DNA from: Gemmatimonadota bacterium
Lineage (GTDB): Bacteria > JBHIER01 > G020348925
Assembly: GCA_020348925.1 (NCBI GenBank)
Contig: CP070758.1
Coordinates: forward strand, 52,682 to 93,947
Direction: 5' to 3'
Length of the DNA stretch: 41,266 nucleotides
The notes beneath the pieces were generated by a model, which saw nothing but the letters and a program-made list of their open reading frames with translations, was not told the DNA's origin and did not search any database. Both the position numbers and the translations under genes were made by a program. This document shows positions 14,502 through 40,875 of this stretch, in pieces. Every line of letters starts with the position of its first letter. Position 1 is the stretch's first letter.

Positions 14502-14588
14502 TATGGTGGCATCTGGTGCAACTCCTGTATGGGTTCCACTTATACCATCACCGGCCGCAATCCCTGCTGCCTTCGTTCCGTGTCCGTT

Positions 14589-15344: not shown

Positions 15345-15346
15345 TT

Positions 15347-15460
15347 TTAAACCTCCGAGAAGAAAAACGAAAGAGACATAAACTGTACTCCCCACGAAAA
15401 ACTGAACGCACTACCCAACCCCAATGCAATCTTCATCATTTCGTTTTTGTCTTTAATCAC
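15347..15460 (-). CDS. Possible 37-codon leader ORF coupled to the subtilase
   Basis: A frame from GTG 15460 to TAA 15347 ends two bases before ATG 15344 and its last codons contain the GGAGG of the next gene. An internal ATG pair at 15439 would give MMKIALGLGSAFSFSWGVQF and 10 more residues. The GTG is part of a perfect AAAGGAGGTGAT ribosome-site sequence, so it is too close to be a normal start. No homologue recognised. It may be a leader peptide or chance. Confidence 0.25.
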   Translation of the reverse strand: MIKDKNEMMKIALGLGSAFSFSWGVQFMSLSFFFSEV

Positions 15461-15527
15461 CTCCTTTCAAAGCCTTAACAATTGGAGTAAGTTGAAAATT
15501 TCGCCGTCATTTCATCTGTGGATTTAG

Positions 15528-15550
15528 TAGAAAACGTATTCAAGAATACG
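15528..15550 (-). terminator. Intrinsic terminator of the 15576-17747 gene
   Basis: Minus strand CGTATT, loop CTTG, AATACG, then TTTTCT, 26 bases after the stop codon. Six perfect pairs plus a U-run. Confidence 0.6.
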
Positions 15551-15575
15551 GTCACCGCTGTCATGAGTCGCAATA

Positions 15576-17747
15576 TTAGGAATTGTCACTGAGAATTTGT
15601 CTTATCATTCCCACGATGTCCAATGCGTTGATTTCTCCGTCGCTATTAAAGTCCGCGGCCCACAGCTCGTACTCTCTCCATGTAATGGCAGGCCAGATAA
15701 TGATGTGCACCACTATCATCACATCAGCGACAGCAATTGTTCCATCTCTATTCACATCCCCCTTAGCCGGAGGTGGGGGTGTAAATTTTAGAACATGTAG
15801 TCCACCCAAATCAGAGGCCAGATATATGGTATCCCCTGAAACATATATTCCTCTTTCGTGGTATCCCTCGCCCATCATACCATAATGTCCAATCAAAAAA
15901 GGGCTTTCTGGATTTGAGACGTCAAAAACTCGCAATCCCCCAATTTCGCTGGTAACATATAAAAATCCATCACTGGCGAAGATTTCTTCAGCAGTCCCAC
16001 TAATTCCTGCGAAACCCACCTCTTCAGGGATCTGAAGGTTTGAAATGTCTATAGCCATTATGCCGTTCTTACGATGGGCCACAGAAAAGCATCCGACAAA
16101 AGCATAGTCATCGTTTGCAGCTACAACATAGGAATGCCCATTAATTCCGAAACTACCAACCACCTTCGGTTCTCGCGGATTTGTAACATCAAGGATCGAC
16201 AAACCCTCTTCAAACATACTTAGATAAGCATATTTATCTGAGGCATAAATGTCTGTAACCCATCCCTCAACAGTGTATTGACAGATCTCATTCGGATGTT
16301 CGGGAGTTGAAATATCATAGATTCGAATCCCGGGGGGATTAGCAACGACAAAGGCCAAACTGTCCTGTATAAAGAATGATCCCACGTACATACTGGTGGT
16401 ATCAGGAAATCCAACCTCTTTTGGAGTTTGAGAGTCCGATACATCCACAACGCGAAGTCCGTCACTTCCGGAGGCCAAATACGCAAAATGATTCGCAACC
16501 TCTATGTCATAACCTCGAGTCTCACAGTACCCTAACTCCTGCGTTGCCTCCGGGTTTGAGACATCAACCACTCTCAGCCAGGGATCAGTAACATAAGCAT
16601 AACCGTCAGCGACAGAGACATCGTTCGCCCAACCCCCCGTAATATACTCGGCCACAAGTTGTTGATTCTCAATATCCGAAATATCGATGACCCTCAGCCC
16701 AGCGTATCCTACAGAAAGATAAGCGTAATTGTCCTGTACATGAACTGTCCCACCGGAATGCTCCCCCCTTCCTATCAATTGTGGTATCAAGGGATTTGAG
16801 ATATTCAGCACAAAGAACTCACAGCCCGCAACATAAGCGGTGTCATTCAATATGAATATGTCAAACCCACCAAAGGGTTCCTCACTGGCCACATACGGAT
16901 TTTCTGGATCGGATACATCTATAATCGTCATCTGCCAGGAGACGATATAGACATAGTTTCCCAATAGTGCCACACTGGCAACAGGGGTATTATAACCTGG
17001 ATCACAGAATCCAACTCCTTTAGGGTGCGCTGGATCGGAAATATCTGCAACCCAAAACCCCCAATTTGCATCAGGAGTAGGCCCATCGGAACAGGCGATG
17101 TAGGCATACTCTCCAGAAATTACAACATCCTCAGCATAATCGCCCCTGAAACCCCACTCGGGCCCATAAAAACTGCCAAGTTCTCTGGGATTTTCAGGGT
17201 TTGATATATCGAGTATTTCCAAATTTCCCGAAATAAGATAGACGTAATTGTCGTATATATGAATCCGACGGCCACCCTTGTAAATGTACCCAACCAATCG
17301 GGGATTCTTGGGATCAGAAATGTCGAAAACCCATAATCCATTATACCTTGTAACAACGAAAGCATAGTCGCCTAAAAGTGCAAGGTCTTCGACAACCCCG
17401 GATGTATAAATTCTACTGACAAGAGTGGGATGTTCAGGATCGCTGATATCAAAGATCACGAGGGCTCCGCCTGCTCCAACGTAAGCGTAATTGCCCTTGG
17501 TGGTGGCACAAGTTGCAGGACCCAAAAGGGCTCGACCCAATAAAGTGATGTTCTTGTCCTCTGTAATGGTTCCAGCGCTTAATTGAGACAGGTTTTCATT
17601 ATGGCCATATAGAAAACTCTCTCTTGTCGGATGAGTTAGATCATGGATACCGTAAACTGACTGGGCATAGTTTACGGATACGGGTAAAATCAAAAGAGCT
17701 AAACAGATCGGAATTCTTGATTGAATACATTTAACACTACGATTCAT
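15576..17747 (-). CDS. Secreted LVIVD-repeat double propeller with dockerin
   Basis: A 723-residue exported protein. A signal peptide ends near NYAQS. It is followed by 14 LVIVD repeats of 40-50 residues, each marked by a strand like LWVFDISDPKNPRLVG (others are MTIIDVSDPENP, FFVLNISNPLIP, LSILDVTNPREP). Fourteen repeats fit two seven-bladed beta-propellers. After a PPPPAKG linker comes a type I dockerin (GDVNRDGTIAVADV, ADFNSDGEINALDI) which ends the protein. There is no sorting domain, so attachment through a cohesin partner is inferred. GAGG lies eight bases before ATG 17747. LVIVD proteins have no established function; a binding or scaffold role is plausible. Confidence 0.88.
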   Translation of the reverse strand: MNRSVKCIQSRIPICLALLILPVSVNYAQSVYGIHDLTHPTRESFLYGHNENLSQLSAGTITEDKNITLLGRALLGPATCATTKGNYAYVGAGGALVIFDISDPEHPTLVSRIYTSGVVEDLALLGDYAFVVTRYNGLWVFDISDPKNPRLVGYIYKGGRRIHIYDNYVYLISGNLEILDISNPENPRELGSFYGPEWGFRGDYAEDVVISGEYAYIACSDGPTPDANWGFWVADISDPAHPKGVGFCDPGYNTPVASVALLGNYVYIVSWQMTIIDVSDPENPYVASEEPFGGFDIFILNDTAYVAGCEFFVLNISNPLIPQLIGRGEHSGGTVHVQDNYAYLSVGYAGLRVIDISDIENQQLVAEYITGGWANDVSVADGYAYVTDPWLRVVDVSNPEATQELGYCETRGYDIEVANHFAYLASGSDGLRVVDVSDSQTPKEVGFPDTTSMYVGSFFIQDSLAFVVANPPGIRIYDISTPEHPNEICQYTVEGWVTDIYASDKYAYLSMFEEGLSILDVTNPREPKVVGSFGINGHSYVVAANDDYAFVGCFSVAHRKNGIMAIDISNLQIPEEVGFAGISGTAEEIFASDGFLYVTSEIGGLRVFDVSNPESPFLIGHYGMMGEGYHERGIYVSGDTIYLASDLGGLHVLKFTPPPPAKGDVNRDGTIAVADVMIVVHIIIWPAITWREYELWAADFNSDGEINALDIVGMIRQILSDNS

Positions 17748-25400: not shown

Positions 25401-27761
25401 CTATTTCAAAAGTATCATTTTGCGCGACTCCGAGAATAGCCCTGTTTGCAGCCAATAGAAATAGACTCCGCTGCCCACCTCTCTCCCCGAAGTGTCCCGT
25501 CCATCCCAGCTCACGGTGCAGTGTCCGGCATCCTGAACCTCATCGACCAGCGTCCGCACTTCCTGCCCGAGAATGTTATAGATCTTCAGGGTGGTGCGGA
25601 GAGGATATCTACTATCTGGTATCTGGTATCTAATATCTGTAGATTCATTGAACGGATTGGGATAGTTTTGCGCCAGCGAGAATGTCAGCGGAGTCAATCC
25701 TTCTTCTCCATCGTCATTAACCGAGGTGCCTTCACACACCAATACGTTGACACCACCGTATACTGTCCCACACCAGATATTCCCTGCACTATCAATGGCC
25801 ACTTCCCCTATGATATTGTCCGATATGGGGCTATTCTCTATGGTGTACACTACCCACGTTGCGCCATCAAACTTCACCAGGCCATAGCTTGTCCCAAACC
25901 ACATGTTGTCATCTCTGTCCACTGCTATTGACCAAATTCTGTCACTCTTCAATCCACTGTTCGAGGTGTCATACGTCACCCAGATTGAGCCATCAAATTT
26001 GCTCACACCGGTCAATGTCCCAAACCACATGCTCCCCTTACCGTCTGGAGCGATGGATACCACCCTGTTACTTGCCAGACCGCTATTGAATGTGGTGTAG
26101 GTCGTCCACGTAAAACCGTCAAATTTGTTCACTCCATCTGCCGTCCCGAACCAGACATTTCCCTTTTCGTCAACAACCACCGAATACACGTGATCATTTG
26201 CCAATTCACTGTTCTGAGGGGTGTATACGGTGCAGGTTGTATCATAAAGCCTGACGGCTCCTCCACCAACGGCAATCCATTTGTTATTCTCATTATCTAC
26301 TGCAATAGAACGTACAGTGAGATAGGCCAACCCGAAGTCTGGAAGATGATAGTTTGTCCAATCAACCCCGTCAAACTTGGTTACCCACTTTATTATTGTG
26401 GAGTTTATGGCTCCAGAGCCTCCAAACCAGATATTCCCATCATGATCTTCTGCAATCGCATCAACCATTTCAAATTGTACCCCACTGTTGTCCGGATTGA
26501 AGACTGTCCAATCCGATCCATCCAACACACAGGCTGCACCCAGATTATAATATCCGGAGACTCCAAACCACTTCCGGTTCGCGTGATCAATTAGAATAGT
26601 GCGTATGTAATTATCTGGTAATCCGCTGTTGGAGGACTCGTAATGGGACCAGTTTTCACCGTCAAATATACACAAACTGGCCCATCCTTTCCTGAAAGGC
26701 CTGGTCCCGAACCATTTCTTGCCCTCGGGATCAATGGCCACCGATAACACTCCGTTGCTGGTTAATCCGCTGTTTTCCATCGTGTAATTGACCCAGTTGT
26801 GCCCGTCGTAAGAGTACACCCCGGTCATCATGCTCACACACCAGACCGTACCCGCACTATCTATGGCGATGTCATGTATGTTATTGTCTCTCAAATCGCT
26901 ATTAAACATGTCAAAACTTATCCAGGATTGGCCGTCAAAAAAGCTGATGCCACCGTCCCCAACACTCCACAACGTACCCATGCAAGCTATCCAAATGTTG
27001 CCCTTGTTGTCCTCGGTGATGGCCGAAATGTTGTTGGAAGCGATATCTGCATTCTCTGTGTCATACGTCGTCCAGACCGACCCGTCAAATCGACAAATGC
27101 CACTTCCATCGACCAATTCGTCACCCGCTGTACCGAACCAGCAGGTCCCCGATCTGTCCACATAGACTGACCACACCAGGTTGCTGACAAGACCGCTGTT
27201 TGAGGTGGTGTAACTTGTCCATTCGGTCCTGTCGAACATGCTCACACCTCTTGTTGTTCCAAACCACAGACGATCCCAGTGATCCAGGAAAATCGAACTA
27301 ACAGAATCGCAGATCAGCCCACTGTTCATGCTGTTATAATAGGTCCAGTTCTGCCCGTCAAATTTGGCCACCCCCCGAATTGTAGAAATCCACTTGTTTC
27401 CCAGACTGTCTATCACTATATAACCGACACGATTATACGGAAGCCCTTCAGCCCTGGTGTAGTAAGTGACGTCCTCGTGAGAGTCGGTGAGGCTTCGTTT
27501 GATCAACCCGCCCCGGGTGCCCTCCCAGACGTAATCACCTTCGAAAGCCACATCCGCAACGATGGAGGCATTGGTGTAATTTCGCCAGGTTTCTGAACTC
27601 CCACTCTGGGCCCATAATGTGCTAAAGAGAAAGAACAGAGTCAAAACTATGCTTGCCCGGATTTTCCAACACGTAAAAACAGACCATAAGTATTTGTCTT
27701 CTCCTTCTTGTCTCATATTGAGAAAGAAACTCATCTTCTTGGCCTCTCTTTGCCTTTTCAC
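25401..27761 (-). CDS. Secreted two-component-regulator-type double propeller with sorting domain
   Basis: About 786 residues. A long n-region and hydrophobic core (ASIVLTLFFLFSTLWAQ) precede 14 repeats of the Reg_prop type, each with a core such as LWFGTTRGVSMFDR, VWFGTADGVNKFDG or MWFGTSYGLVKFDG followed by WTTYTTFNSGLASN. Fourteen repeats fit two seven-bladed propellers, as in the sensor half of hybrid two-component systems, but there is no membrane anchor, kinase or regulator domain. The chain ends with a sorting domain (QNYPNPFNESTDI to KMILLK), so it is exported and surface-bound. GTG 27761 overlaps the upstream stop as GTGA; ATG 27734, with GAGAGG upstream, is an alternative. It probably binds a polymer or partner protein. 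Confidence 0.87.
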   Translation of the reverse strand: MKRQREAKKMSFFLNMRQEGEDKYLWSVFTCWKIRASIVLTLFFLFSTLWAQSGSSETWRNYTNASIVADVAFEGDYVWEGTRGGLIKRSLTDSHEDVTYYTRAEGLPYNRVGYIVIDSLGNKWISTIRGVAKFDGQNWTYYNSMNSGLICDSVSSIFLDHWDRLWFGTTRGVSMFDRTEWTSYTTSNSGLVSNLVWSVYVDRSGTCWFGTAGDELVDGSGICRFDGSVWTTYDTENADIASNNISAITEDNKGNIWIACMGTLWSVGDGGISFFDGQSWISFDMFNSDLRDNNIHDIAIDSAGTVWCVSMMTGVYSYDGHNWVNYTMENSGLTSNGVLSVAIDPEGKKWFGTRPFRKGWASLCIFDGENWSHYESSNSGLPDNYIRTILIDHANRKWFGVSGYYNLGAACVLDGSDWTVFNPDNSGVQFEMVDAIAEDHDGNIWFGGSGAINSTIIKWVTKFDGVDWTNYHLPDFGLAYLTVRSIAVDNENNKWIAVGGGAVRLYDTTCTVYTPQNSELANDHVYSVVVDEKGNVWFGTADGVNKFDGFTWTTYTTFNSGLASNRVVSIAPDGKGSMWFGTLTGVSKFDGSIWVTYDTSNSGLKSDRIWSIAVDRDDNMWFGTSYGLVKFDGATWVVYTIENSPISDNIIGEVAIDSAGNIWCGTVYGGVNVLVCEGTSVNDDGEEGLTPLTFSLAQNYPNPFNESTDIRYQIPDSRYPLRTTLKIYNILGQEVRTLVDEVQDAGHCTVSWDGRDTSGREVGSGVYFYWLQTGLFSESRKMILLK
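25604..25638 (-). repeat. Heptanucleotide repeat, five units, in sorting-domain coding sequence
   Basis: Minus strand AGATATT, AGATACC, AGATACC, AGATAGT, AGATATC. It encodes part of DIRYQIPDSRYP. Confidence 0.75.
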
Positions 27762-29974
27762 TTTTCTCCCAGGATATGGTTGGTAGAGAAGGCAGGATTC
27801 AGGATCTTATTTACTATACCAACCACGTCCAAGATATTAACCTCCCCGTCACTGTTGAAGTCTGATGCCCATAGCTCATATTCTGTCGGAGAGGGTGGAA
27901 GCTTTAAAATAATATGTACTACTCTGAGGACATCGAGCACGTCCACATTGTCGTCTCTGTTGACATCACCTTTTGCACCGGGCGGAAGGGTCAAACTCCA
28001 TACCCCTGCCTGGGTGCCCGCATGAAGAAGATAATTACCCTCCCGAACCAGCACCATGGTATGATCAAGTTGATACGAATGGTCAGCTTGTTTAAAAGGC
28101 AATTGTGGGTCCATCTCAGTCCACTTTGCGCCACCATTGGTGCTCTTAAAAATACCTTGCCGGCCCGTCTGGGTATAAAGGATATCAGGATTTGATGGAT
28201 CAATACGTATCGATAGAATGCCATCGGTGAGGGATGGAAGTCCCTCATTTATAGAAGACCATGTGGATCCTGCATTATCACTCTTAAGAATATGCTTAGC
28301 CGAACCCGTGGATCCTACGTACAATATGCTACTATTCGCAGGGTTGATAGTAAGGGTGGTTATAAGCTCGGGAAGTATGCATCCCCAATTCAAGCCAGAA
28401 TCATAAGTCTTGGCCAAACCGGGGGTGAACGTATGTGGTTGGATGTAAGCATAAATTACGGCTGTATTCGTAGAATCTACAGTGATCCAGGTAACTAATC
28501 CCCGCAGCAATTCGTCCCAGGATTCACCACCGTTGGTGCTTTTATACAAAGCACCTCCTTCCGTACCACCAGTCCCTAAGTAAAGCACATTTGTCGAATC
28601 AGGATTTATCGCTATTGAATAGGGAGCCTCCCAAGCCAAACTCAGGCCGCTATCGATTTCTGTCCAGGAGTGACCATGATCGATGCTCTTTTGCACGCCG
28701 GATCCGGTCATATATATAATATTGGTACGTAGCGGATCAATCTCAATAGATGATATCCATCCCCTCTTGAGTCCCGTCTCCAGCCAGATTTCACCACCAT
28801 CCAAACTTCGAAAGAGACCTTCGCGTTTGCTACCGGCATAAAGGATGGTCTCATCCTGAGGGTCTTTGGTTAAAGCCGTAATCATGGGATACCCCATCTC
28901 AACTTTGGACCAGGTGAACCCTCCGTCCACACTTTTTAATAATCCCCCTGTGTGCAATCCTGCATATACAGTACTCGGATTCAGTGGATCAATGCAGAGA
29001 GAATTTACGTCATTGGTGTATTCTAAATCTTCGCTATTGACGTACACCTCCTCCCAAGTCCACCCGGTATCGGAACTCCTCAGAATTTCTCTGCCCGTAC
29101 CGGCAAACAATATGTCGCTATCGGAAGGATCGATACATATGGATTCAATCGAAGAGTTCAAAATCTGTGAGCTGTAAATCGTAGCCCAGGAAACTCCGCC
29201 ATCGGTACTTCTAACTATCAAACCCTCAGCCATTCCAACGCAGCCACCGACATAAAGAGTGCCAGTGTGATTGAGATCTATAGTCTTAGGCCAATATAAT
29301 TGAGGAATATAAATCGCATCTGACCACGTAGAGCCAGCGTCTATCGTCTTAAAAATCGGTCCCCCTTCTATCAACACATAGACTACATCTGGACCAGTGG
29401 GATCCATTGCCATATCCCTAATGAGACCGAATAGCCCTATGGAGTCAGTAGCCGCTTCCCAGCTCTGTCCGCCATTTATCGTCTTGTAAACTACATCGTT
29501 GCTACCGGCAACGTAAATAATATCAGGATCCAGCGGATTTATGATTATGGAATTTCCAACCTTGTCGTTGATCTTTGTCCAGGTCTCACCATAATCCGAA
29601 GACTTATATAACTCCTGCCAGTTGCCCGCATACACATTCCGGGGCTCCAGAGGATCGACCGCAACTGAAGTCACGCACTCAATCTGGCCAATCGTTACAG
29701 GGATACCTCTCAATCCACCCTCAATACTCTTGAACACGCCGCCATAAGCAGTTCCTGCATAGACTCTATCGCTTGACACCGGATCGACGGCCACAGACAG
29801 CACCTCCCCCCCATAAGGTCCGTGGCTTATCCACTGTTGATCTTGACTGGCTAAGGATGAAGATTCCAAGTTAGAATAAGTAATTATCGTAGCGATTGAT
29901 AAAAATATATTCATAGAAACCATGGTAAATTTAACTTTGATGTTAATTCTTATTTTTTTCTCTTTTGGTATCAT
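27758..29974 (-). CDS. Secreted BNR/sortilin-type double propeller with dockerin
   Basis: About 738 residues. Fourteen blades carry BNR (Asp-box-like) strands: thirteen of the type LYKSSDYGETW, VYKTINGGQSW, LLKSVDGGFTW, GIFKSTNGGAKW, and a closing GVWSLTL. Each is preceded by a D(P/S)...(V/I)(L/I)YAG strand as in sortilin, exo-sialidase-like and YCF48-like propellers. No catalytic set of a sialidase is evident. After PPGAKG a type I dockerin closes the chain (GDVNRDDNVDVLDV, SDFNSDGEVNILDV). The signal core MNIFLSIATIITYSNL is clear, but the start is not: ATG 29974, 29980 or 29923, with the frame open to TTG 30025. The downstream propeller gene overlaps its stop codon, so the two are co-translated and may work together. 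Confidence 0.85.
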   Translation of the reverse strand: MIPKEKKIRINIKVKFTMVSMNIFLSIATIITYSNLESSSLASQDQQWISHGPYGGEVLSVAVDPVSSDRVYAGTAYGGVFKSIEGGLRGIPVTIGQIECVTSVAVDPLEPRNVYAGNWQELYKSSDYGETWTKINDKVGNSIIINPLDPDIIYVAGSNDVVYKTINGGQSWEAATDSIGLFGLIRDMAMDPTGPDVVYVLIEGGPIFKTIDAGSTWSDAIYIPQLYWPKTIDLNHTGTLYVGGCVGMAEGLIVRSTDGGVSWATIYSSQILNSSIESICIDPSDSDILFAGTGREILRSSDTGWTWEEVYVNSEDLEYTNDVNSLCIDPLNPSTVYAGLHTGGLLKSVDGGFTWSKVEMGYPMITALTKDPQDETILYAGSKREGLFRSLDGGEIWLETGLKRGWISSIEIDPLRTNIIYMTGSGVQKSIDHGHSWTEIDSGLSLAWEAPYSIAINPDSTNVLYLGTGGTEGGALYKSTNGGESWDELLRGLVTWITVDSTNTAVIYAYIQPHTFTPGLAKTYDSGLNWGCILPELITTLTINPANSSILYVGSTGSAKHILKSDNAGSTWSSINEGLPSLTDGILSIRIDPSNPDILYTQTGRQGIFKSTNGGAKWTEMDPQLPFKQADHSYQLDHTMVLVREGNYLLHAGTQAGVWSLTLPPGAKGDVNRDDNVDVLDVLRVVHIILKLPPSPTEYELWASDFNSDGEVNILDVVGIVNKILNPAFSTNHILGEK

Positions 29975-30187
29975 GACCATGGCCTGCCATTGGATGAGGT
30001 TCGATTTGAGTCTGAACAAACACAACTGTAGAAAAGAGCATTAATAGAACAAGACTCCGACCATATATGTGATTTCGAGTTAGATCTGAAAGCGCTGAAA
30101 CTCATATTAGGAGCAAATTAGATGAAACATCAATCTATCCGAAGAGTCTTGATTAGAACATAGCTCGCCTCGCTCGCAACGTTCCCA

Positions 30188-30586: not shown

Positions 30587-30829
30587 CGACGAAAGTTTTA
30601 ATCGGAGAACGTTATTGAGAAAAGCTGTTTCTGATTGAAAAAACTCAGTTCGGAAATTTCGTTTTTGGTAATTTTTATATCTTTTGTGACTTGATGTTTT
30701 CGTGGCAAAATTGTATGAATAATTCAGACTGGAAATGATAAAACGATTCTGCTGAACGTCAGAATCAGGAGGATATTCGTAAAAGTGCGGCACCCTGCGG
30801 TATTCAGAATTGAGTAGCCATATTCCTCA

Positions 30830-31867
30830 CTACTCTTTCGCAATGATAACCAATCCCAGGTCTCGATCGACAAGGTAGACATAGTTGTCAGTGGCGAAGA
30901 TACCTTGAGCATAGGGAGTTTCAACCCAGCCGGCGAGAGTCGGTTGACTTGGATTTGAAATGTCAAGAGCGACCATGCCTTCGTCCCGGTCCGCCATATA
31001 CGCAATAGTATTGAAGACACATACGTCAACTACTCTATCCACATCCTCATAACTTCCTACTATTTCCGCTTCTTCTGGGATTGATACATCAATAATCTGA
31101 ATTCCTCTCTGATAGGCTGCCAGATATATATGATTGTCCCACAGCGAGAGGGCCCGCGCACCCCCCGGTGTGTCGACGGTTTTTATATGAGCGGCACTAT
31201 CCGGCAGCGACAGATCAATGATCTCCAGTCCGATGTGATCATTGGCCACATACGCAAATTCCTCGGAAGCAACCACGTCCAACGCATCGCCATAGGCAAA
31301 AGGAATCCTTTTGTAAAAATTATAGAAGAACCAGTTCCAGTCACCGCCATCTCTCTCGTATCGATTGACCTTGAATCCCTCGTGCCTATCCGCCCCAAAA
31401 ATAAAAAGAGTGTCTCCCTTATCAATTCCGAAGGTACCCTCAATATCACGATCAAAGGCAATATTCAGCAACTGCGGCTCATCAACAGTACTCACATCAT
31501 AAATCAGTAATCCAATGTCATAATCCGCGACCAGAGCAATGTTGTTCTCCTCTAAGATATGAACCGCCTCGACGTTCGTGGCTGACTGGTCATGACCTAT
31601 GGTCGTCACAAAGGATGGATCCTCGGGATCTGAAACGTCGAGCACCCATACACCAGCTTGGTCGTCAACAACGTAAGCATACGTATCGACGACATACACC
31701 TCGAGAGCATACCCCGGAGTCGCGAAGGTGCTGACAACGCGGTATGGATTCTCAGGTTGAAAAGGATCCTTCTGTTTCCCGCAGTTCGAAACAAGAATCA
31801 AAACAAGAGAGATCGTCGCAACGACGAAACGCGGCGCAATGTTTTTCATGGGCTGCTTGTTTTTCAT
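30830..31867 (-). CDS. LVIVD-repeat lipoprotein, single seven-blade propeller
   Basis: 345 residues. The N-terminal signal ends in a lipobox (LVSNC, cysteine about residue 29), so the protein is lipid-anchored. Seven LVIVD-type repeats follow (VWVLDVSDPEDP, LLIYDVSTVDEP, a divergent third blade with FKVNRYERDGG, LEIIDLSLPDSA, IQIIDVSIPEEA, MVALDISNPSQP, LVIIAKE), enough for one propeller. It has no dockerin and no sorting domain, unlike the two longer LVIVD proteins here. GAGGA lies four bases before ATG 31867. It is the last gene of the operon starting with pgsB, only 34 bases after the barrel gene, so I infer a periplasmic or outer-membrane accessory of that system. Confidence 0.85.
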   Translation of the reverse strand: MKNKQPMKNIAPRFVVATISLVLILVSNCGKQKDPFQPENPYRVVSTFATPGYALEVYVVDTYAYVVDDQAGVWVLDVSDPEDPSFVTTIGHDQSATNVEAVHILEENNIALVADYDIGLLIYDVSTVDEPQLLNIAFDRDIEGTFGIDKGDTLFIFGADRHEGFKVNRYERDGGDWNWFFYNFYKRIPFAYGDALDVVASEEFAYVANDHIGLEIIDLSLPDSAAHIKTVDTPGGARALSLWDNHIYLAAYQRGIQIIDVSIPEEAEIVGSYEDVDRVVDVCVFNTIAYMADRDEGMVALDISNPSQPTLAGWVETPYAQGIFATDNYVYLVDRDLGLVIIAKE

Positions 31868-31901
31868 AGTGTCCTCAGTACATTCATTTCTCGAATATAT
31901 T

Positions 31902-33368
31902 TCAATACGTCAATTCAAACCCTACGGAAATGCGATTGCGATTATAGTTCTTCACCTCTGTGATTCGTTCTTTCTCTTTTGAGGAGACGTCCCTCCTCTG
32001 ATATTCATATGTCCCGATGATCGAAAGGCTGCGGAAGATCTCAACTTCTGTCATCAAGGAAAATCGGTGTATTGTATCTCGCCTTCCGGCATGAAACGGA
32101 TCCTGTTCCAAGGATTTTTCGGTTGTGAAGTATCTTTTGTTCAGCCGGTATTGTAGCGTGACATTCGCAGGGAGTGAAACATAGTTTGAGATGCTGAACT
32201 CTATTCCTCCACGAAACTGATCCTCGTCATACGATATGTCTGAATCGTCCGAGAGGTCTTTCGTTTCTCCCGGTTCATCATATCCCTTTGCCTCAGCCAT
32301 TTTAAAGGCATACTCAAAAGTCGTCCGAACAATCGGATTGAACGTATGAACAATTTCAAAGCCAAAAGTGTTCGCTTTCGTATCGTATTCGGTAAAATAT
32401 TGATTGTAATAGAGTATATCACGTTCATAGTGTACGGACACCCGGGTGGCGTGGAACACTTCACGCCCAAGCTTTATTGAAAAAAGGTTTCTGGCAAAAT
32501 CACACTCTCTATACTTCTCACCGTCATCCGAACTCAGGGGGGAAACATCCTGATCCCAATACGGACGAATATGAAACTCTGGAATATGAAAGTAACCCAA
32601 TTGCAGATAATTTTTCTTGAATGCTGTTGTTTTCAGAAAGGTAGAGAACGTCTGATAATTTCTATCGCCATTCTTTGTGAAAAGGTTGCACCTATAACTC
32701 AGACGAAGTCTCGATTGTATATTCTGGGAAAACCGTCTTGTCACAAACACAGTCAGGGAAGGGGAAACAATCAGATCGTCATAGGTCTCCATGGAGAAAC
32801 GCTCATCCTCTCTGTGATAGACAAAATTATCGATATCTCCCGGTGAGTAACGGTAAACGTTATCATCGTATGTATTGGTCAAGGATGTTTTCCAGTTCCA
32901 GCTCCACGGCTTGGTCAGAGTAATATGGGCCAGAACTCCCCTCCCTTCAGGCCTCTCCAGAAAAAAAGTATACGTGTGGATTCCCTTTGGCACGTCAAAT
33001 GTTATTTTTTTCGGAAGACCGGGTTGGAGCTCGGGAGATTTTTCTAATATTGCTTTCGACGATGGCCTGGCACTAAACAGAAAAACATCCTCTCGAGCGT
33101 TGTTTGTTACGACAGTAATATTATACGCCTCCGGCCCATCAAAGTCCTGGGGAAAGAGCCAACGTGTTATTACGGTCAATTCTCCAGGACCACTCACTTC
33201 CAATTCAAGGGGCGCTCTGTCGGAAAAAGAATAATAGTCGTATGGTTTCCCATGAATACTCACCTCAACCCGATCAAGATACATCTTCGGTATCAGGCTA
33301 CCCCCCTGTGCCTTGGCAGCTAAGAATGTCATTACAATGATTGAAAAAAATATGTTCTTTTGAAACAC
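31902..33368 (-). CDS. Outer-membrane beta-barrel protein with N-terminal repeat domain
   Basis: 488 residues. Signal peptide (MFQKNIFFSIIVMTFLAAKAQ), then one copy (about 30-147) of the same unrecognised beta domain found twice in the neighbouring 33417-34328 product (APLELEVSGPGELTVITRW ... FDVPKGIHTYTFFLE). From about 155 on, alternating amphipathic strands (SLTNTYDDNVYRYS, SRLRLSYRCNLF, YLQLGYFHIPEF, TRVSVHYERDILYY, NVTLQYRLNKRYF) end in RISVGFELTY with an aromatic final residue, the usual sign of an outer-membrane barrel (about 14-16 strands). The GTG start at 33368 is supported by the signal peptide. In this operon it is a candidate outer-membrane exit or anchor for the polymer made by PgsBC; this is inference. 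Confidence 0.8.
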   Translation of the reverse strand: MFQKNIFFSIIVMTFLAAKAQGGSLIPKMYLDRVEVSIHGKPYDYYSFSDRAPLELEVSGPGELTVITRWLFPQDFDGPEAYNITVVTNNAREDVFLFSARPSSKAILEKSPELQPGLPKKITFDVPKGIHTYTFFLERPEGRGVLAHITLTKPWSWNWKTSLTNTYDDNVYRYSPGDIDNFVYHREDERFSMETYDDLIVSPSLTVFVTRRFSQNIQSRLRLSYRCNLFTKNGDRNYQTFSTFLKTTAFKKNYLQLGYFHIPEFHIRPYWDQDVSPLSSDDGEKYRECDFARNLFSIKLGREVFHATRVSVHYERDILYYNQYFTEYDTKANTFGFEIVHTFNPIVRTTFEYAFKMAEAKGYDEPGETKDLSDDSDISYDEDQFRGGIEFSISNYVSLPANVTLQYRLNKRYFTTEKSLEQDPFHAGRRDTIHRFSLMTEVEIFRSLSIIGTYEYQRRDVSSKEKERITEVKNYNRNRISVGFELTY

Positions 33369-33416
33369 AAGAAATATTCCCTGAAAAGCTGGATCAGTAA
33401 GAACTCATCCCATGAA

Positions 33417-34328
33417 TCATCTGACGTCTTCGGTAGGGATCTGAAACCGAAGACAAACACCCTGATACTGAGAATTCGGTAATTGAAACTCATACGTGTG
33501 CGAACCTTCCGGCACTTCGATCTCAAATCTCTTTGCCGCACCAGGTATGATCGCCGACCTGTCCTCATAGGTCACCGTTGTTGACCGGACACTTTCAATA
33601 TGTAGGGATTTCAATGGGTGGCCATCCTCCGCGACATTCAGGACGTACATTTGCTTTCCAACCATGCCGGGATCGTAATCCAGACGAGCCTGAACTTTCA
33701 ATTGGGTCGGTCCGTTGACCCACACACGAACTGCTTGTTCACGGGTCAGGAGATAATAGGTCCTCTCTCGGCTTTCGGACAGAAAGGCTGTCACAGTCTC
33801 CGCATATTCGTGCGGAGTGATTTCAACCACATCGTCCAATTCATATATCCTGGCCTCGACCCGGTGTTTGGAATTCGCACCCAACCGCACCTGGAAAGTG
33901 TGGCGACCGGTATCGCTGATTGTATGATCGAGTTTCAGTGCCTTTCCCAACGTGACATCCTTCAATTCTATATATGCTGCCTTTTTCGTTTTTGTCGCCC
34001 TGTGAAGAATTTTTTCCTTTTCCACGCCGTTCTCTGAGAGTATGACCTCGTATGATTGTTCGCCCTCCATCCCTGGAGTAAAACGCAAGCGGGAAAGCAC
34101 TCTCACCTGAGTCGGCCCCGTGACCGTAAAGACGAGGGGCGTATCCGCATCGAAACCATAATAGACGAGCTCCGAGCCAAAAACCCTGAGTATAACACGC
34201 TCGATAAATCCCTCCGGAACGAGCGCATCCCAATCAGGCACCTGTCCTTGACTGCTGCCGGAGCAGAAGACAACGCACACGGTTGTTATCGCAAGAAGTG
34301 AAATGAAACTTCGGCGTATTGTATTCAT
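33417..34328 (-). CDS. Exported protein with two copies of an unrecognised domain
   Basis: 303 residues. A signal peptide (MNTIRRSFISLLAITTVCVVF) is followed by two beta-rich copies of about 125 residues (about 36-160 and 170-300). Shared line: hydroxyl- or aromatic-rich strand (ELVYYGF / ERTYYLL), then PLVFTVTGPTQVRVLSRLRF in the first and VRVWVNGPTQLKVQARLDY in the second, then pGMxGxQxY, and a closing G(R/S)HT(F/Y)(Q/E)FxL. The first part of the barrel gene 31902-33368 is a third copy. No family recognised. Its ATG overlaps the TGA of the pgsW-type gene (ATGA), so it belongs to that system; a periplasmic binding or bridging role is inferred. Confidence 0.8.
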   Translation of the reverse strand: MNTIRRSFISLLAITTVCVVFCSGSSQGQVPDWDALVPEGFIERVILRVFGSELVYYGFDADTPLVFTVTGPTQVRVLSRLRFTPGMEGEQSYEVILSENGVEKEKILHRATKTKKAAYIELKDVTLGKALKLDHTISDTGRHTFQVRLGANSKHRVEARIYELDDVVEITPHEYAETVTAFLSESRERTYYLLTREQAVRVWVNGPTQLKVQARLDYDPGMVGKQMYVLNVAEDGHPLKSLHIESVRSTTVTYEDRSAIIPGAAKRFEIEVPEGSHTYEFQLPNSQYQGVCLRFQIPTEDVR

Positions 34329-35440
34329 GGGGAAATCTCCTTACCCTCGGGTCGAATGAGGTAGTGTTTCATATCGAAGCGTATCGTGCAGAACATAATA
34401 ATCGAATACAAAACAAGAAAAGCAATGGTTATCGGTACGCTGTAGACGGATTCGGAGAAGATCTTCCCCTCTCCAATTTCGGGGAGAGGTACCGGTTCAA
34501 GGGGCAGATCGAATCTCTCGGCGATCCGATCGATCTCGAGGAGGTGAATGATTGGCACACCCTGTTCGGCCATAAGAATCGTAACACCTTTTCGGGGGAA
34601 CGCTCTCGTCCCCAAACGTCTCGTCAGTCCCGGCGGAATGAGCCTGGCATTCTGACTGCTCCCGAGACTGGCCAAACCGCCGCCGACATTGATAAAGACA
34701 CCCATATGTCGATCAGCTCTGAGACTGTCATAGATGGCCATTCGTTGAAGGATGTTCTCCTCAAGCGAAGAACCCTCGATCAATCGTTGACCGTTTCTTT
34801 CCACTGCTTCGCGGATCAACCCTCTTCCTCTCGGACTCAATCCGTTTCCCAGATCGGCCCCACCGCCCAAAGAGGCTGCCACGGATACGTGCTCGAAGAC
34901 TCCCTTTCGATGCAACTCCGATTCCATGTCGAGCCAGGTGTACGTGGGATCTGTCGCACCCCATGAGGAAGCACCAACGGAAGTAATAACGATAGACTGC
35001 AGACCCAATGTTTCAATGGCGGCCAGAACAGCGATGTTCAATCCCGGTGAAGCCCCGGTGAGTGCCACACCGACGACACCACCTCTGCCGGTCTTGGCCT
35101 TTTTAAGAAGCTGAACGACAACGGCCGCAAGATTTGGATTGGTTGCGGTCAACTTCATCCCCAAAGCAGCTCTGTCGGTGGTGATGAGGGTGTATTGCGG
35201 TCCGATCAGCCCTGTGTTATTGGGATCATTGACCGGATCAATGGGCAGTCCTCTTGCAAGTCGGTTCTCCCTGATGACACCCTGTGCCCTCTGAGCCAAT
35301 TCGGATGCTTCCATTTTGGCTGAAAAATAACGGGCCTTTCTCTCCACCTTGAAACGCTCAACACCAAGCGTACAAAGCAGTGCAAGAAGCCCTAATACGA
35401 TCAATACCCGATTTGAGACTCTACCAGAGCGCCACCTCAA
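34325..35440 (-). CDS. pgsW: Poly-gamma-glutamate system protein (PgsW type)
   Basis: 371 residues resembling the poly-gamma-glutamate system protein that accompanies pgsB and pgsC in many non-Bacillus bacteria. There is one membrane helix near the N-terminus (VLIVLGLLALLCTLGV) and one near the C-terminus (VPITIAFLVLYSIIMF). Between them lies a large extracytoplasmic domain with conserved-looking stretches GVVGVALTGASPGLNIAVLAAIE, ITSVGASSWGATDPTYTW, VAASLGGGADLGNGLS and GVFINVGGGLASLG. The start is TTG 35440, eight bases after GGAGG and inside the pgsC gene. Its precise reaction is not known to me. In Gram-positive systems PgsA/CapA fills the third position; here no CapA is visible, so this protein may take that part. 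Confidence 0.82.
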   Translation of the reverse strand: MRWRSGRVSNRVLIVLGLLALLCTLGVERFKVERKARYFSAKMEASELAQRAQGVIRENRLARGLPIDPVNDPNNTGLIGPQYTLITTDRAALGMKLTATNPNLAAVVVQLLKKAKTGRGGVVGVALTGASPGLNIAVLAAIETLGLQSIVITSVGASSWGATDPTYTWLDMESELHRKGVFEHVSVAASLGGGADLGNGLSPRGRGLIREAVERNGQRLIEGSSLEENILQRMAIYDSLRADRHMGVFINVGGGLASLGSSQNARLIPPGLTRRLGTRAFPRKGVTILMAEQGVPIIHLLEIDRIAERFDLPLEPVPLPEIGEGKIFSESVYSVPITIAFLVLYSIIMFCTIRFDMKHYLIRPEGKEISP

Positions 35441-35882
35441 TCAATCCACCTCCGTGAATAAGAATCACCAGCAGCCGGACCAAAAAACCGGCCATAAACA
35501 TTGTCGTAATTGTTTCGAGCACCCCCTGTCTCTCCATCCAGTTGGCAATAAGGCCGGGTATTATGTAGCCGATGGCTTGAAGAGCGTAAGCTTCCTCATT
35601 CATCCTGAGAAAGGGAAGCTGTCGGGAAACATATCCCAAAAGAAAACCGAAAAGGATGACCATCACGAGACGGCGTCGGCCGTAAATGATCATAAAATTC
35701 GACAGGAATCTTACAACGAGGAAAGCGCCGAGAGCGGCCAGGAGTGTCCCCAAAATACGCAAGGGTTGGTCCAAATAGAGAGCGATATATCCCGGGACGA
35801 CCATCCCCCCGGCAGCCAGACCGAGAATCTCAGAAAACACGAGGCTGATAACCAATCCAATGCCAATCGCTTCAGCAATCAT
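35421..35882 (-). CDS. pgsC: Poly-gamma-glutamate synthesis membrane protein PgsC/CapC
   Basis: 153 residues with about five membrane helices, the standard size for PgsC/CapC. Recognisable parts are LGLAAGGMVVPGYIALYLDQP near the N-terminus and a VLFGFLLGYV segment in the middle. With PgsB it forms the membrane-bound amide ligase that elongates the chain from the cytoplasmic side. The ATG overlaps the pgsB stop as ATGA and its 3' end overlaps the next gene by 20 bases, so stoichiometric expression is likely. Confidence 0.92.
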   Translation of the reverse strand: MIAEAIGIGLVISLVFSEILGLAAGGMVVPGYIALYLDQPLRILGTLLAALGAFLVVRFLSNFMIIYGRRRLVMVILFGFLLGYVSRQLPFLRMNEEAYALQAIGYIIPGLIANWMERQGVLETITTMFMAGFLVRLLVILIHGGGLIEVALW

Positions 35883-37048
35883 GCCGCTGTCCCTTTGCTC
35901 TCAAAGAAAGAGGCGACCTGTTCACCCGCACCGACGATGTTGCCAATACCGACCACGAGGGATTTTTGTGGAGTGAGCTCCACAACCTTTTCGAAGATCC
36001 GTTCGGGAGACATCCCTGCCATATTTACAATTGTTCTCTTGTCGAGTCCCTCTTTTACAGCAATATGTTCGACAACAGGAGTCGCCGTCCCGATCAAAAT
36101 ACAATGATCGGCTTTAAGCTCATGGGCCACGAGCTTGCCAAATTCTTCGGTTCTGTCGAGCCGATCCTCTCGGTTATAAAAAATCGTGATAAGAGGTCTG
36201 TCTGCGTGCGACGAGATCCGCAACTGCTTCCAGATACTCACGGTCGACTCCGGATCGTTCGCCGCAAAAGCATTGATAAACTCGATCTCTTTGTTCGAAG
36301 AGCGTATTGTAAGTCGACGCAAGGCTCCGGGATCCGGTACGGCCTTCACCATACCCTGCAGGGCCGTCTCCCTGTCTATGCCGACAAATTCACAGACAGC
36401 CGATGCCAGGGCGACATTCTCCCTGTGTTCAATGTAGGTGAAACGGCTCATCACCTCTTCCGGAATACCGTCTCCACCGACAGCATGGACTTTCGCCTTC
36501 AGATCTTTGGCCTGTCTCACAATGATCGGAAGCAGCTCTCTCTCGGCAGTGAAGACGATGCCCTTGCGAGGTATGGTAAGACTGAGGGCGAGGGCAACGT
36601 TCTCCAAGGTTGGCCCCATCTCATCGAGATGATCTCCCCTCACATTCGTAATCACTCCCAGCGTGGCATGCACCATCATGCGCTCCGAAACGGATTGAAG
36701 TTCAGGCCGTATGGCCATGCACTCCAGAACAAGAGCCTGAGCATCATGCCTGTTCGCGATCCGAAAGATCTTGAGCTGTTCAATGACATTGGGTTTCCCG
36801 TGACGCACGACCGGCTCTTCCCCTCCGTCTTCATAGATGAGCCTTGCTCTTGTGCCGGTCGTCTTGGCCACCGTGCGTATGCCGCCCTCTCTCAGACCGG
36901 CGGCAATAAGACGCGTGACGGACGATTTCCCACGTGTGCCGTTGACGTGTATCCGCATGGGTATAGATCTCACCTGGGTCACGTGACGGCGATACTCGAC
37001 GAGACCGTAAACGATCAAACAAAACACCAATAAAAGGATCATACGCAT
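35879..37048 (-). CDS. pgsB: Poly-gamma-glutamate synthase PgsB/CapB
   Basis: 389 residues. After an N-terminal membrane helix (MILLLVFCLIVYGLVEYRR) comes the Mur-ligase-like ATP site RIHVNGTRGKSSVTRLIA, then AKTTGTRARLI, LVLECMAIRPE, GVITNVRGDHLDEMG and INAFAANDPEST. These are the hallmarks of PgsB/CapB, which activates the chain end with ATP and adds the next glutamate. The length matches CapB. The frame is open to 37324, but that lies over the end of the C25 gene; ATG 37048 (or 37042) places the helix at the N-terminus. The polymer could be another gamma-linked amino acid chain; the sequence does not fix the substrate. Confidence 0.93.
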   Translation of the reverse strand: MRMILLLVFCLIVYGLVEYRRHVTQVRSIPMRIHVNGTRGKSSVTRLIAAGLREGGIRTVAKTTGTRARLIYEDGGEEPVVRHGKPNVIEQLKIFRIANRHDAQALVLECMAIRPELQSVSERMMVHATLGVITNVRGDHLDEMGPTLENVALALSLTIPRKGIVFTAERELLPIIVRQAKDLKAKVHAVGGDGIPEEVMSRFTYIEHRENVALASAVCEFVGIDRETALQGMVKAVPDPGALRRLTIRSSNKEIEFINAFAANDPESTVSIWKQLRISSHADRPLITIFYNREDRLDRTEEFGKLVAHELKADHCILIGTATPVVEHIAVKEGLDKRTIVNMAGMSPERIFEKVVELTPQKSLVVGIGNIVGAGEQVASFFESKGTAA

Positions 37049-37116: not shown

Positions 37117-40100
37117 TTATTTCAGCAGCAACATCTTCTTCGTCTGCCTCACATCGCCCGCTACAAGGCTGTAAAAATAGATACCGCTGGGAACAGGATT
37201 TCCAGACGTGTCGCAACCATCCCAAGTGACGATGTAATGACCTGACACTCTGGGCATATCCACAAGCGTTCGCACCACTTGTCCGAGGATATTGTACACT
37301 TTCACGGTGGTCTGGACGGGACATCCACTCTCTCCTATCCGGTATCTGATATCCGTTTCAGGATTAAAGGGATTGGGATGGTTCTGAAAGAGCGCAAATC
37401 CTTCGGGAACGCCCTGAGACAATTCGAGTTCGACATCGGTCGCAAAGGTATCGGGAGGGTCCGTAGTAAATTTAATGGCCATGCCCGAGATCAGGTGGGC
37501 AGCCGCTGGGGGATATCTGTTGGCAAACGTATACTCAAGACCGTCCCCTTGAGTGGGCGATTCGATACCCACTGTGGCGAAATTGCCCGTGGCATCGACG
37601 TTGTTCACCGTATGATACTGAAAGAGGATCTCTCCGTCGCCGGTGTGCGTGGGCCAATATTCGGGATCGTACAGAACGGCTTCCAGTATCTCCATGGAGC
37701 TGTCGTAATGGTTCAGAACCCGACTCCACTCCACGACAAAGCGATGCTCGTCGGGTTCATAGAGCGAACAGACGTGGATCTCATCGTGCGCCGATCCCGA
37801 AACCAATGTGGAATCGAGATCGTCCCAGAAAACGGCGATCATACCGTAGGGCCCCAGGGCTGCCGGGATGCCCCAGTTCCGAAAGTCATTCATCCAGCTC
37901 TCACCCGGAGCCAGCCAGCCGTTGGAGCTGACGGTCACCTCATCGTACGCACGGCCGTAGTACCGGAAAGGAAAGGGCAGATCGAGCACGATTTTGTCGT
38001 CGTCTCCCAAAATCATCTTTATCCCCTCCCCCCCGTAATCGGGATCGACCTCGATCCAATCGTAAAAGGGCGCCTCATCATATGCGACATCAGTATGATC
38101 GTAAGCGTAATACCCGTACGTATCCGGACCCAAAGGATCCGTGGATGCCACCGTTCCTATGGTCAGGGAAAATGATGTCGTGTCCGAAAAAGCATCACGT
38201 CCGCTGAGACAGAGCCTCAGGGTAACAACCCGACCGACGGTCGCCGAAGAGGCGACGCGTAGGGTGAAAGGATCCGACGCGTTCTCCACTGCTTGGCCGA
38301 CCTGAAGATCGTGGAATGTCCCGTTCGAATCAATCACAGTTACGGCCGCATTTCCACTTTTCAGAAGACCGGTCACATCGGCCACTGCCAGGAGACCGTC
38401 ATTCTCAATCATCACAACCACATCTGCGCTCTCTCCGGGATCGAGGAGACCGTTTCCGCCACCGTCATCTATGGTATGGCCTGCATATGCGATATTGGCA
38501 CCGACCACGTCCAGACCGAATTCGGAAGAATAACTGTCAAGGTCATCCTTGGTACCCAAGGTAAAACGGATAGTACGACCGTCAGGACAGGAAGGATTCA
38601 CAACAAATTCAAAACTCTCGGTACCGGTGCTGGTATACCCCGGACCTACGTTCCCAAAACTCACCACAGCATTCGTAATCGTAACGAGCGGATCCGACGT
38701 TTTCAGAGTGCCTGTGACGGCAATGGCAATATGTGCGGTGCCGTAATTTTTCACTGTGAGGGGTAAGAGAATCGCCTCTCCCGGATTCACCATCCCATTG
38801 TCGTTTCCAGCACTGTCGTCGATATCATGATCATAGTACCCGATGTAGCTGCGGTTTTCGGTGACCAGTGCATATCCCACATAGGGGATGCAATTATGGG
38901 CCGTTACCGTCACAAACATGGTATCCTCGGTCGTCGGCATGATGGCAAAATCTATTCCTCCGCCAGCATCCGTGTAGCCGTGAACGTACACTTCCTCTCC
39001 CTTGTGAAGGCAGACGCTTGCGCCTTCCAGGGGCTCAGCCCCCTCCCCCATCACCGTCACTTCAAAGGTGTTTTCACCCAGGGAGATCTCGGCGGCATGA
39101 GAAACTGATAAGTGCTGCGGCACATCAGTCCACAGGTCAAGACTGGGATCGCCCAGAATGTTGTACACGTGGAAATAGAACTCCACCCAGCCGTCCGGTT
39201 CGGCCAGATTGGGAAAGCCGAGATACAGTTCGAGTTTACCCCGCGCAGCGGCAGCACCCAAGCGGGACAATTGCTCGTCGAACAATCCCCAGTACAAGCC
39301 GGCATCGATGGCATTGTTGTACTTCGTACTCGTGTACAGGTCGCTGGGGCCGAAGAAGGCCACGCCGCCCTTGGGCTGCATGGGTGTGCCGGCCCGGAGC
39401 CAGACTTCGCCGAAACAGGGATCGACCGTCTGATTCCCGAAATCACCGGAGTTACAGACAATGGACGTCATGACCGGCAGCATGAATCCGTTGTTCAGGA
39501 TGAGAATATCATCCGTCTTGAAATTCGGATAGTGCCAGCCGTTGGCGTCGCCCCAGCCGCGGTAGTTGACGATTCCTACCCCCCGGTTGATGGACGCCGA
39601 GATGAGTTGCGGGCCGGTCGTGGGGGGATAGAAGACCGTATCCACCTCCGTGTAGCCGTAGTTCAGCATCTTCTCCCGGAGCCACAGGGACGTCAACCTC
39701 GGCGTGGTCGGTATGGGCGGGGTTTCACTGTAGTTGCCGGCAATAACCAGAGCCCTCTTGAACCAGGCGGTCTGGGTCAGGTACGGTTCCCGTTCGTAGC
39801 TCAGGATTTTATTGACCGTGACGACGAGATCATAGGCCGAGTCCACCGATAAACGCCCCACCAGAAGATCCGAAAAGTAGTCATCACCCTCCAACAGGCT
39901 GTAGGGATGATCGGTGACGTCCGCATCTCCCCCGCCTGGAGGTTGTTTGTAGAAGGTGCGAAACTCCCCGACGCCCTGCATGTGCGTGTCGCCCACGAGC
40001 AGAACGTACTCAGGGGGGATCTCCCAGTTGAGGTAGGCATCAAGAACGAACGCCCGTATGTCATTGCCGGTTGGATCCGATCCGATGTCCGACAACCTGA

Positions 40101-40875
40101 CGACCAGGGTGGGCCAACCGTTGCGGTGCTTCCAGTCGGCCAGAGGCTGGATGTGTTCGGCAAAGGCATCGTGGGTGATGATGAGAAAACTCCCTCGGTG
40201 GTACTCCGCAACACCTCGACAGACATTACTGTAATTCAAGATCACATTTTCATATATCCCTCGAAAAGCCTCCGAGAGCCGGCGCGATGTCTCAGCTGCT
40301 GCTTCGGTCACGGGTGCCGAATACGTCAGCTCAATCACGATTCTTTTATAGACGAGTAACTCATCTCTTTCATTATGATATCGCATCGGATATATCATGA
40401 CCGGCGCCACGCGAAAATCCCTCATCGCACCCGCGGCTCCAACCGCCGCAATCTCCTCCGGCCAGAACCCGTCCCGGCTGCGAACTTCCGATTCGACGAT
40501 ACCTGTTTTGAGTTTGATGTTTGAGACGATGTCGTATTCATATCCCAGGATCCTCAGGCCGACGTCTCCATCATCAGGAACGGCCACCAGCTTTGCAATA
40601 AACGGTAGTCCTGGCCTCCCCTCTACGCCGGTCAAGGTACAATCGGGCATTCGGATCGTCTGATACATTTCCCCTTGCGCGGTCTCTTCACGGATCTCGA
40701 AGCCCGGAATCTCCACCTCCAGGATCGTCCCGACGTTGTCCGAACGCTGAACAGTTATGAGGGGGGCATTCCCTTCGCTATGAGTATTCAGCTCGTACCA
40801 TTCCGCTTGTGTGATCGAACAGAATAATAGAAGTAGACAAATAATAACGAAAAGATTTCTTGTCGCAGGAATCAT
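37117..40875 (-). CDS. Gingipain-family (C25) protease-like protein with sorting domain
   Basis: 1252 residues. Signal peptide (about 1-24), C25 propeptide (to about 225), then the gingipain-like core (about 228-600) with FLIITHDAFAEHIQPLADWK, YVLLVGD and YNILGDPSL. The catalytic cysteine C474 is kept in TSIVCNSGDFGN, but the histidine of the usual NYxGHG motif is a tryptophan (NYRGWGDANGWHYP, W441; a histidine follows at 448). After the core: a carboxypeptidase-regulatory-like segment, two CARDB-like sandwiches each with a DPGE/NPGE calcium-type loop, a larger beta domain (about 950-1140) and a sorting domain (QNHPNPFNPETDI to KMLLLK). SD GGAGAG precedes ATG 40875. It may be inactive, altered, or rely on H448. 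The core resembles a secreted substrate, not the PorU sortase, because it carries its own sorting domain. Confidence 0.87.
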   Translation of the reverse strand: MIPATRNLFVIICLLLLFCSITQAEWYELNTHSEGNAPLITVQRSDNVGTILEVEIPGFEIREETAQGEMYQTIRMPDCTLTGVEGRPGLPFIAKLVAVPDDGDVGLRILGYEYDIVSNIKLKTGIVESEVRSRDGFWPEEIAAVGAAGAMRDFRVAPVMIYPMRYHNERDELLVYKRIVIELTYSAPVTEAAAETSRRLSEAFRGIYENVILNYSNVCRGVAEYHRGSFLIITHDAFAEHIQPLADWKHRNGWPTLVVRLSDIGSDPTGNDIRAFVLDAYLNWEIPPEYVLLVGDTHMQGVGEFRTFYKQPPGGGDADVTDHPYSLLEGDDYFSDLLVGRLSVDSAYDLVVTVNKILSYEREPYLTQTAWFKRALVIAGNYSETPPIPTTPRLTSLWLREKMLNYGYTEVDTVFYPPTTGPQLISASINRGVGIVNYRGWGDANGWHYPNFKTDDILILNNGFMLPVMTSIVCNSGDFGNQTVDPCFGEVWLRAGTPMQPKGGVAFFGPSDLYTSTKYNNAIDAGLYWGLFDEQLSRLGAAAARGKLELYLGFPNLAEPDGWVEFYFHVYNILGDPSLDLWTDVPQHLSVSHAAEISLGENTFEVTVMGEGAEPLEGASVCLHKGEEVYVHGYTDAGGGIDFAIMPTTEDTMFVTVTAHNCIPYVGYALVTENRSYIGYYDHDIDDSAGNDNGMVNPGEAILLPLTVKNYGTAHIAIAVTGTLKTSDPLVTITNAVVSFGNVGPGYTSTGTESFEFVVNPSCPDGRTIRFTLGTKDDLDSYSSEFGLDVVGANIAYAGHTIDDGGGNGLLDPGESADVVVMIENDGLLAVADVTGLLKSGNAAVTVIDSNGTFHDLQVGQAVENASDPFTLRVASSATVGRVVTLRLCLSGRDAFSDTTSFSLTIGTVASTDPLGPDTYGYYAYDHTDVAYDEAPFYDWIEVDPDYGGEGIKMILGDDDKIVLDLPFPFRYYGRAYDEVTVSSNGWLAPGESWMNDFRNWGIPAALGPYGMIAVFWDDLDSTLVSGSAHDEIHVCSLYEPDEHRFVVEWSRVLNHYDSSMEILEAVLYDPEYWPTHTGDGEILFQYHTVNNVDATGNFATVGIESPTQGDGLEYTFANRYPPAAAHLISGMAIKFTTDPPDTFATDVELELSQGVPEGFALFQNHPNPFNPETDIRYRIGESGCPVQTTVKVYNILGQVVRTLVDMPRVSGHYIVTWDGCDTSGNPVPSGIYFYSLVAGDVRQTKKMLLLK
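37320..37354 (-). repeat. Heptanucleotide repeat, five degenerate units, in sorting-domain coding sequence
   Basis: Minus strand GGATATC, AGATACC, GGATAGG, AGAGAGT, GGATGTC, encoding part of DIRYRIGESGCP. Confidence 0.6.

Follow-up and report, generated by a model that had tools for sequence, protein, structure and literature searches.

What is known of poly-gamma-glutamate comes mainly from Bacillus, a Gram-positive genus in which the PgsBCA/CapBCA machinery needs no outer-membrane exit, and the described monoderm PgsBCA systems lack the periplasmic and outer-membrane genes found downstream of the synthase genes here. pgs genes also occur in many uncultured diderm phyla, where the polymer's way out has so far been left open, and no described poly-glutamate system accounts for the outer-membrane step. 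CapBC was noted in Cloacimonadota in an Antarctic-lake study (PMC8542988). In a 2026 study of the same phylum, 99% of digester genomes had capB and flocs stained as poly-gamma-glutamate; the study called the CapB-CapC-CapA operon typical of Gram-positive producers, and the term 'outer membrane' is absent from its main text (PMC13082233). Among exopolysaccharides, the alginate, Pel, PNAG and cellulose operons each include an outer-membrane-associated TPR protein (PMC9384988). Such synthase-dependent systems (AlgK/AlgE, PelB, PgaA, BcsC) combine an inner-membrane synthase, a periplasmic repeat protein and a barrel in one operon, an arrangement that the locus described below is predicted to share. 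In PgaA, PelB and BcsC, scaffold and barrel are parts of one protein.

The window analyzed here, a 41,266-nucleotide stretch of a Gemmatimonadota genome assembled as one contig of 5.04 Mb, carries on its minus strand the six open reading frames of the original prediction, all borne out in position (Table 1). PgsB and PgsC are orthologs of the Bacillus proteins by NCBIfam equivalogs and are encoded in the same order: PgsB scores 450 bits against TIGR04012 (cut-off 223) and contains the ATP-binding P-loop NGTRGKSSVTRL, and PgsC, whose gene adjoins pgsB, scores 135.6 bits against TIGR04011 (cut-off 96). The start of pgsB is the ATG at 37048, in agreement with the original prediction; a longer frame reaching 37324 is spurious. 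Unlike the Bacillus systems, the locus encodes PgsW, which has one hydrophobic segment close to either end, in place of PgsA/CapA; the predicted lack of capA holds for the whole genome, with zero matches to PF09587. The overlapping junctions described earlier are real (4 bases, ATGA, at pgsB/pgsC and at pgsW/two-copy gene; up to 20 at pgsC/pgsW), as are the gaps of 48 and 34 bases ahead of the barrel and LVIVD genes.

Table 1. Features of the locus, with positions in the window
Feature	Position	Strand	Evidence
C25 (gingipain/PorU-type) peptidase-like protein, FlgD/T9SS-type C-terminal tail	37117..40875	-	PF01364 E=3e-64
pgsB, Mur-ligase-like poly-gamma-glutamate synthase subunit	35879..37048	-	TIGR04012 E=6e-135; Mur_ligase_M PF08245
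pgsC, membrane subunit	35421..35882	-	TIGR04011 E=1e-39; PF14102 E=7e-36
pgsW, 'poly-gamma-glutamate system protein'	34325..35440	-	TIGR04332 E=8e-89, 298 bits, cut-off 100
Two-copy exported (periplasmic) protein, 303 aa	33417..34328	-	Type I signal peptide by inspection
Domain copy 1, two-copy protein aa 42-150	33879..34205	-	HMM envelope; E=7e-13 to copy 2
Domain copy 2, two-copy protein aa 177-284	33477..33800	-	HMM envelope
Outer-membrane barrel protein (predicted), 488 aa	31902..33368	-	Signal peptide by inspection
Domain copy 3, barrel N-terminus aa 31-138	32955..33278	-	E=4e-14 to copy 1; E=3e-10 to copy 2
LVIVD beta-propeller lipoprotein, lipobox VSNC, accessory	30830..31867	-	PF08309 E=1e-29
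Terminator-like hairpin 3' of LVIVD gene	30744..30767	-	Consensus scan, overall count near chance

The earlier reading had missed that a C25 peptidase gene is a recurring neighbor; here it precedes pgsB in the same orientation, at a distance of 68 bases. Promoter and terminator scans gave counts near chance except for the hairpin at the end of the LVIVD gene and a good promoter-like site at 30487, which are consistent with a transcription unit ending after the LVIVD gene. Behind this site, downstream of the LVIVD gene, lies a gene for a 755-aa VPS10/BNR-repeat protein with a dockerin domain (27758-30025). The window also encodes a 786-aa propeller protein (25401-27761) resembling T9SS PorZ (NF052228, E=9e-49, 167 bits, below the cut-off of 260).

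The LVIVD protein exceeds its Pfam cut-off; neither the two-copy protein nor the barrel has a significant family match in Pfam or NCBIfam. The former does contain the claimed internal repeat, its two copies being 27% identical over 104 aa (E=7e-13), and the barrel has one more copy of the domain, the third, at its N-terminus, which went unnoticed originally. This barrel architecture recurs at five other loci (L040, L045, L046, L061 and L062), and L061 and L062 hold extra barrels distant from pgs genes, each with one N-terminal sandwich copy (2986-4524 in genome G104 and 6424-8043 in genome G272, respectively). In the window's genome the domain was detected solely at this locus. An AlphaFold model computed from the three window copies alone is all-beta with a mean pLDDT of 90.3, so that a beta-sandwich fold is predicted with confidence. 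Foldseek placed it closest, among PDB entries, to carbohydrate-binding-type sandwiches on glycan-active enzymes, including CBM35 and CBM36 modules (E 1.6e-4 to ~4e-3, TM 0.40-0.55). The two-copy family has no significant sequence match in Pfam, NCBIfam or PDB, and PDB sequence searches with its profile (A1), the barrel profile (A2), PgsW and PgsB likewise returned nothing significant. The modeled domain thus shares the jelly-roll beta-sandwich of the galactose-binding-like CBM6/35/36 modules as a resemblance of fold rather than as membership in a CBM family. The 'new repeated domain' of the original prediction is new by sequence, whereas its predicted fold is of a known, galactose-binding/CBM-like kind.

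Most members of the two-copy family are basic (17/19 with a pI above 7.7), as expected for proteins handling a polyanion. In the window, both the two-copy protein (pI 5.7) and the barrel (pI 5.9) are acidic, which counts against a simple electrostatic model; basic charge was therefore rejected as a hallmark, being true of most of the family but failing for these two proteins. More distant relatives of the domain were also seen. In three genomes without pgs (G014, G167, G306) a weakly similar domain occurs in an apparently different barrel-like protein. Proteins of 374-427 aa encoded in genomes without pgs (L068 6342-7466, L071 5798-7081, L072 5288-6454) have a weak N-terminal sandwich match, followed by what may be a C-terminal barrel; they are possibly a sister family with another cargo. 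A variant cluster at L065 (4257-19444, genome G219), in which pgsW was not found, encodes three proteins: one of 801 aa with PgsC domains, one of 1695 aa in which a sandwich copy is weakly matched, and a PgsB-like one of 767 aa.

The barrel fold is suggested by sequence features of the family. Strand-pattern z-scores for alternation range from 0.7 to 5.0, and many members end in an aromatic residue of the outer-membrane-protein type. OMP_b-brl (PF13505) matches 5 of 17 members weakly and below cut-off, and a single-sequence AlphaFold model of the window's barrel reached a pLDDT of 30. Four of the 17 homologs match part of the profile of EpsL (TIGR03014), an outer-membrane protein of exopolysaccharide loci, with a best E of 2e-6, below cut-off; the window's barrel itself scores 14.6 bits where the cut-off is 275. 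Since EpsL comes from exopolysaccharide loci, this partial likeness points toward polymer export.

The distribution of these genes was determined in 386 genomes, nearly all of other families, searched with PgsW, A1 and A2; a contig scan with PgsW alone returned 2 loci and was too narrow. Forty genomes contain pgsW, and PgsC was found in all 40. Strong matches (E below 1e-30 to profiles seeded from pgs loci, and hence biased against homologs elsewhere) to the two-copy protein occur in 26/386 genomes and to the barrel in 27/386, every one among the 40 with pgsW (hypergeometric p ~1e-30 by genome; ~2e-21 by family, each of 256 families being taken once). The distance between pgsW and the two-copy gene is below 600 bases in 21 of 26 genomes, and that between the two-copy gene and the barrel gene in 17 of 25. 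In G003, G104, G151, G241 and G291 the two-copy gene stands away from pgs yet still co-occurs with it, which argues against mere linkage.

Omp85 is present in 40/40 pgsW genomes; all are therefore diderm, and a monoderm/diderm split is ruled out as the cause of the module's presence. Twelve of them lack both the two-copy protein and the barrel, meaning either that other exits exist or that detection failed. Module-less loci (G265, G315, G180, the Myxococcales contig L014 and others) have the same pgsB, pgsC and pgsW genes, and no two-copy or barrel gene was found there; the module serves as a genomic marker splitting diderm pgs loci into two classes. In a PgsW tree of 36 rows the module-bearing sequences fall on one side of one branch (1 change versus 10.2 in shuffles, 0/500 as low), although this branch is poorly supported (36/0); PgsW of module-less loci lies outside the module-bearing group, with the same weak support.

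A second sample comprised 118 genomes of the phylum of G140, presumably Cloacimonadota, and was largely but not wholly independent because two seed sequences came from the same phylum. The two-copy protein is present in 94/118 of these genomes, and 19 of 20 loci from genomes other than G140 show the order pgsB-pgsC-pgsW-two-copy-barrel, the twentieth being a short contig with the two-copy and barrel genes alone. The Cloacimonadota described with CapB-CapC-CapA (PMC13082233) are also diderms with pgs genes; loci of G140's phylum, probably the same, have the two further genes directly after them. At L108 a single open frame of 639 aa joins the two-copy part (aa 15-270) to the barrel (aa 312-637), and G427 and G466 have matches in open frames about as long. 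The L108 fusion and the additional sandwich carried by the window's barrel give good grounds for a joint role of the two proteins. Far from occurring mostly apart from pgs genes, strong matches to the two-copy protein (26/26) and the barrel (27/27) were found among the 386 genomes in those with pgsW alone, mostly in the same order directly after pgsW, and their belonging to the pgs system of diderms is well supported. The original prediction had tied the last three genes to this system; it stands for these two and is less firm for the LVIVD gene.

Of the 27 barrel-bearing genomes, 13 (G000, G001, G003, G068, G098, G101, G104, G148, G207, G210, G272, G287, G340) have the LVIVD gene next to the barrel gene or the two-copy gene; in the rest it was not seen there. 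The 13 include loci in which the barrel and two-copy genes are far from pgsBC, and the LVIVD gene is then still beside the barrel. G068 and G101 yielded just three LVIVD repeats each, and those listed with positions lie at the module locus. The lipoprotein is treated as accessory. C25 genes occur near pgs or barrel loci in 13 loci including the window, and the peptidase is probably accessory as well. The window's C25 protein has GWG where the family has GHG, replacing a histidine that we take to be catalytic, and keeps the cysteine. The same GW is found in C25 proteins beside the pgs loci L045, L046, L059, L063, L016 and L035, and GHG is kept in one C25 copy at L023 and L027.

The observed gene content and order, co-occurrence, shared domain, natural fusion and synthase identity are likely to mark a diderm subtype of poly-gamma-glutamate synthase with a dedicated periplasmic and outer-membrane export module. 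By analogy with the alginate, Pel, PNAG and cellulose operons, PgsB, an ATP-dependent ligase, would synthesize a gamma-linked glutamate polymer together with PgsC and with PgsW, which would replace PgsA/CapA, and the three would extrude it across the inner membrane. The two-copy periplasmic protein, with its tandem CBM-like beta-sandwiches, would receive the emerging chain and pass it to the outer-membrane barrel, the proposed exit; in the window, a third sandwich would sit at the periplasmic mouth of the barrel. At the outer membrane or on the cell surface, the LVIVD lipoprotein and the C25 peptidase would assist as optional partners. Relay, pore, barrel fold, polymer identity and both the direction and the fact of export are inferred. 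The exopolysaccharide exporters differ in having a glycosyltransferase synthase, in place of which there is an amino-acid ligase here, with no glycosyltransferase synthase among the operon genes scanned, and in having a TPR/Sel1 scaffold, whereas the window's periplasmic protein consists of two beta-sandwiches and has no TPR; no sequence relation to the alginate, Pel, PNAG or cellulose exporters was found. More likely than not, though with a little less assurance than for the subtype itself, PgsBCW, the CBM-like relay in the periplasm and the pore in the outer membrane form a dedicated two-membrane secretion system for an amino-acid homopolymer. Such a system would extend over 19 or more bacterial families and almost the whole of one phylum and would have evolved separately from the TPR-based exporters; a described precedent was not found. 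Outside subscription papers, the literature searched contained no description of the module. The two undescribed genes that stand beside pgs genes in many diderms probably carry the polymer across the outer membrane. How the polymer leaves the cell is given a testable answer in the form of two protein families, one conserved gene order and a naturally occurring fusion, and both families, the two-domain sandwich protein and the barrel, can be added to annotation libraries.

The last three genes may export the polymer, or they may fix it to the outer membrane, as the original prediction also allowed, and the present analysis does not separate the two. If the polymer reached the surface by another route, the sandwiches, barrel, propeller and C25 protein could retain it at the outer membrane or link it to surface proteins. 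In Gram-positive bacteria, CapD joins poly-gamma-glutamate to peptidoglycan. Anchoring of this kind would suit the LVIVD and C25 neighbors, which act at the outer membrane or surface, and the 12 diderm pgsW genomes without the module. The window's genome moreover encodes the T9SS translocon SprA, making a type IX system plausible, and the T9SS sortase PorU is a C25-family protein. However, roughly half of the genomes conserve the two-copy protein and barrel in the absence of LVIVD or C25, barrel homologs resemble EpsL of exopolysaccharide loci, and the window's C25 protein has tryptophan at the usual catalytic position; anchoring in place of export is therefore rather unlikely. That the distal genes are unrelated neighbors carried along with pgs is scarcely credible: the LVIVD gene alone could fit such hitchhiking, its repeats being abundant in many of these genomes, but family-level co-occurrence, the order conserved in 19/20 loci of the second sample, co-occurrence when unlinked and the two-copy/barrel fusion led to its rejection.

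The module might also handle a product other than gamma-polyglutamate, if the PgsB-like ligase polymerized another amino acid or modified another envelope polymer. In favor of this, CapA is missing from the genome, and PgsW is distinct from PgsA. We know of no demonstration of polyglutamate in Francisella. A gene of that genus annotated as 'poly-gamma-glutamate system protein' is called capA (PMC5362203). Set against this, PgsB and PgsC lie far above their equivalog cut-offs, and a Cloacimonadota enrichment with capB formed flocs that stain as poly-gamma-glutamate (PMC13082233). A different polymer is thus unlikely, though marginally less so than anchoring, and export of poly-gamma-glutamate is the preferred reading.

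CapA was also considered as the missing partner and rejected as a fixed part of the system: absent from the window's genome, it is present in most other module-bearing genomes, usually elsewhere. At L022 (genome G140), ORFs at 97-4724 are full of a repeated peptide and are probably a translated array of short repeats, CRISPR-like or otherwise. On the far side of the barrel of this locus, some 2.5 kb away, a gene (14333-17281) encodes a secreted protein of 982 aa that combines PKD and PGA_cap (CapA-type) domains with a type IX sorting tail; it is possibly a surface-exposed CapA relative. Many module-bearing genomes have PGA_cap matches in ORFs of comparable length.
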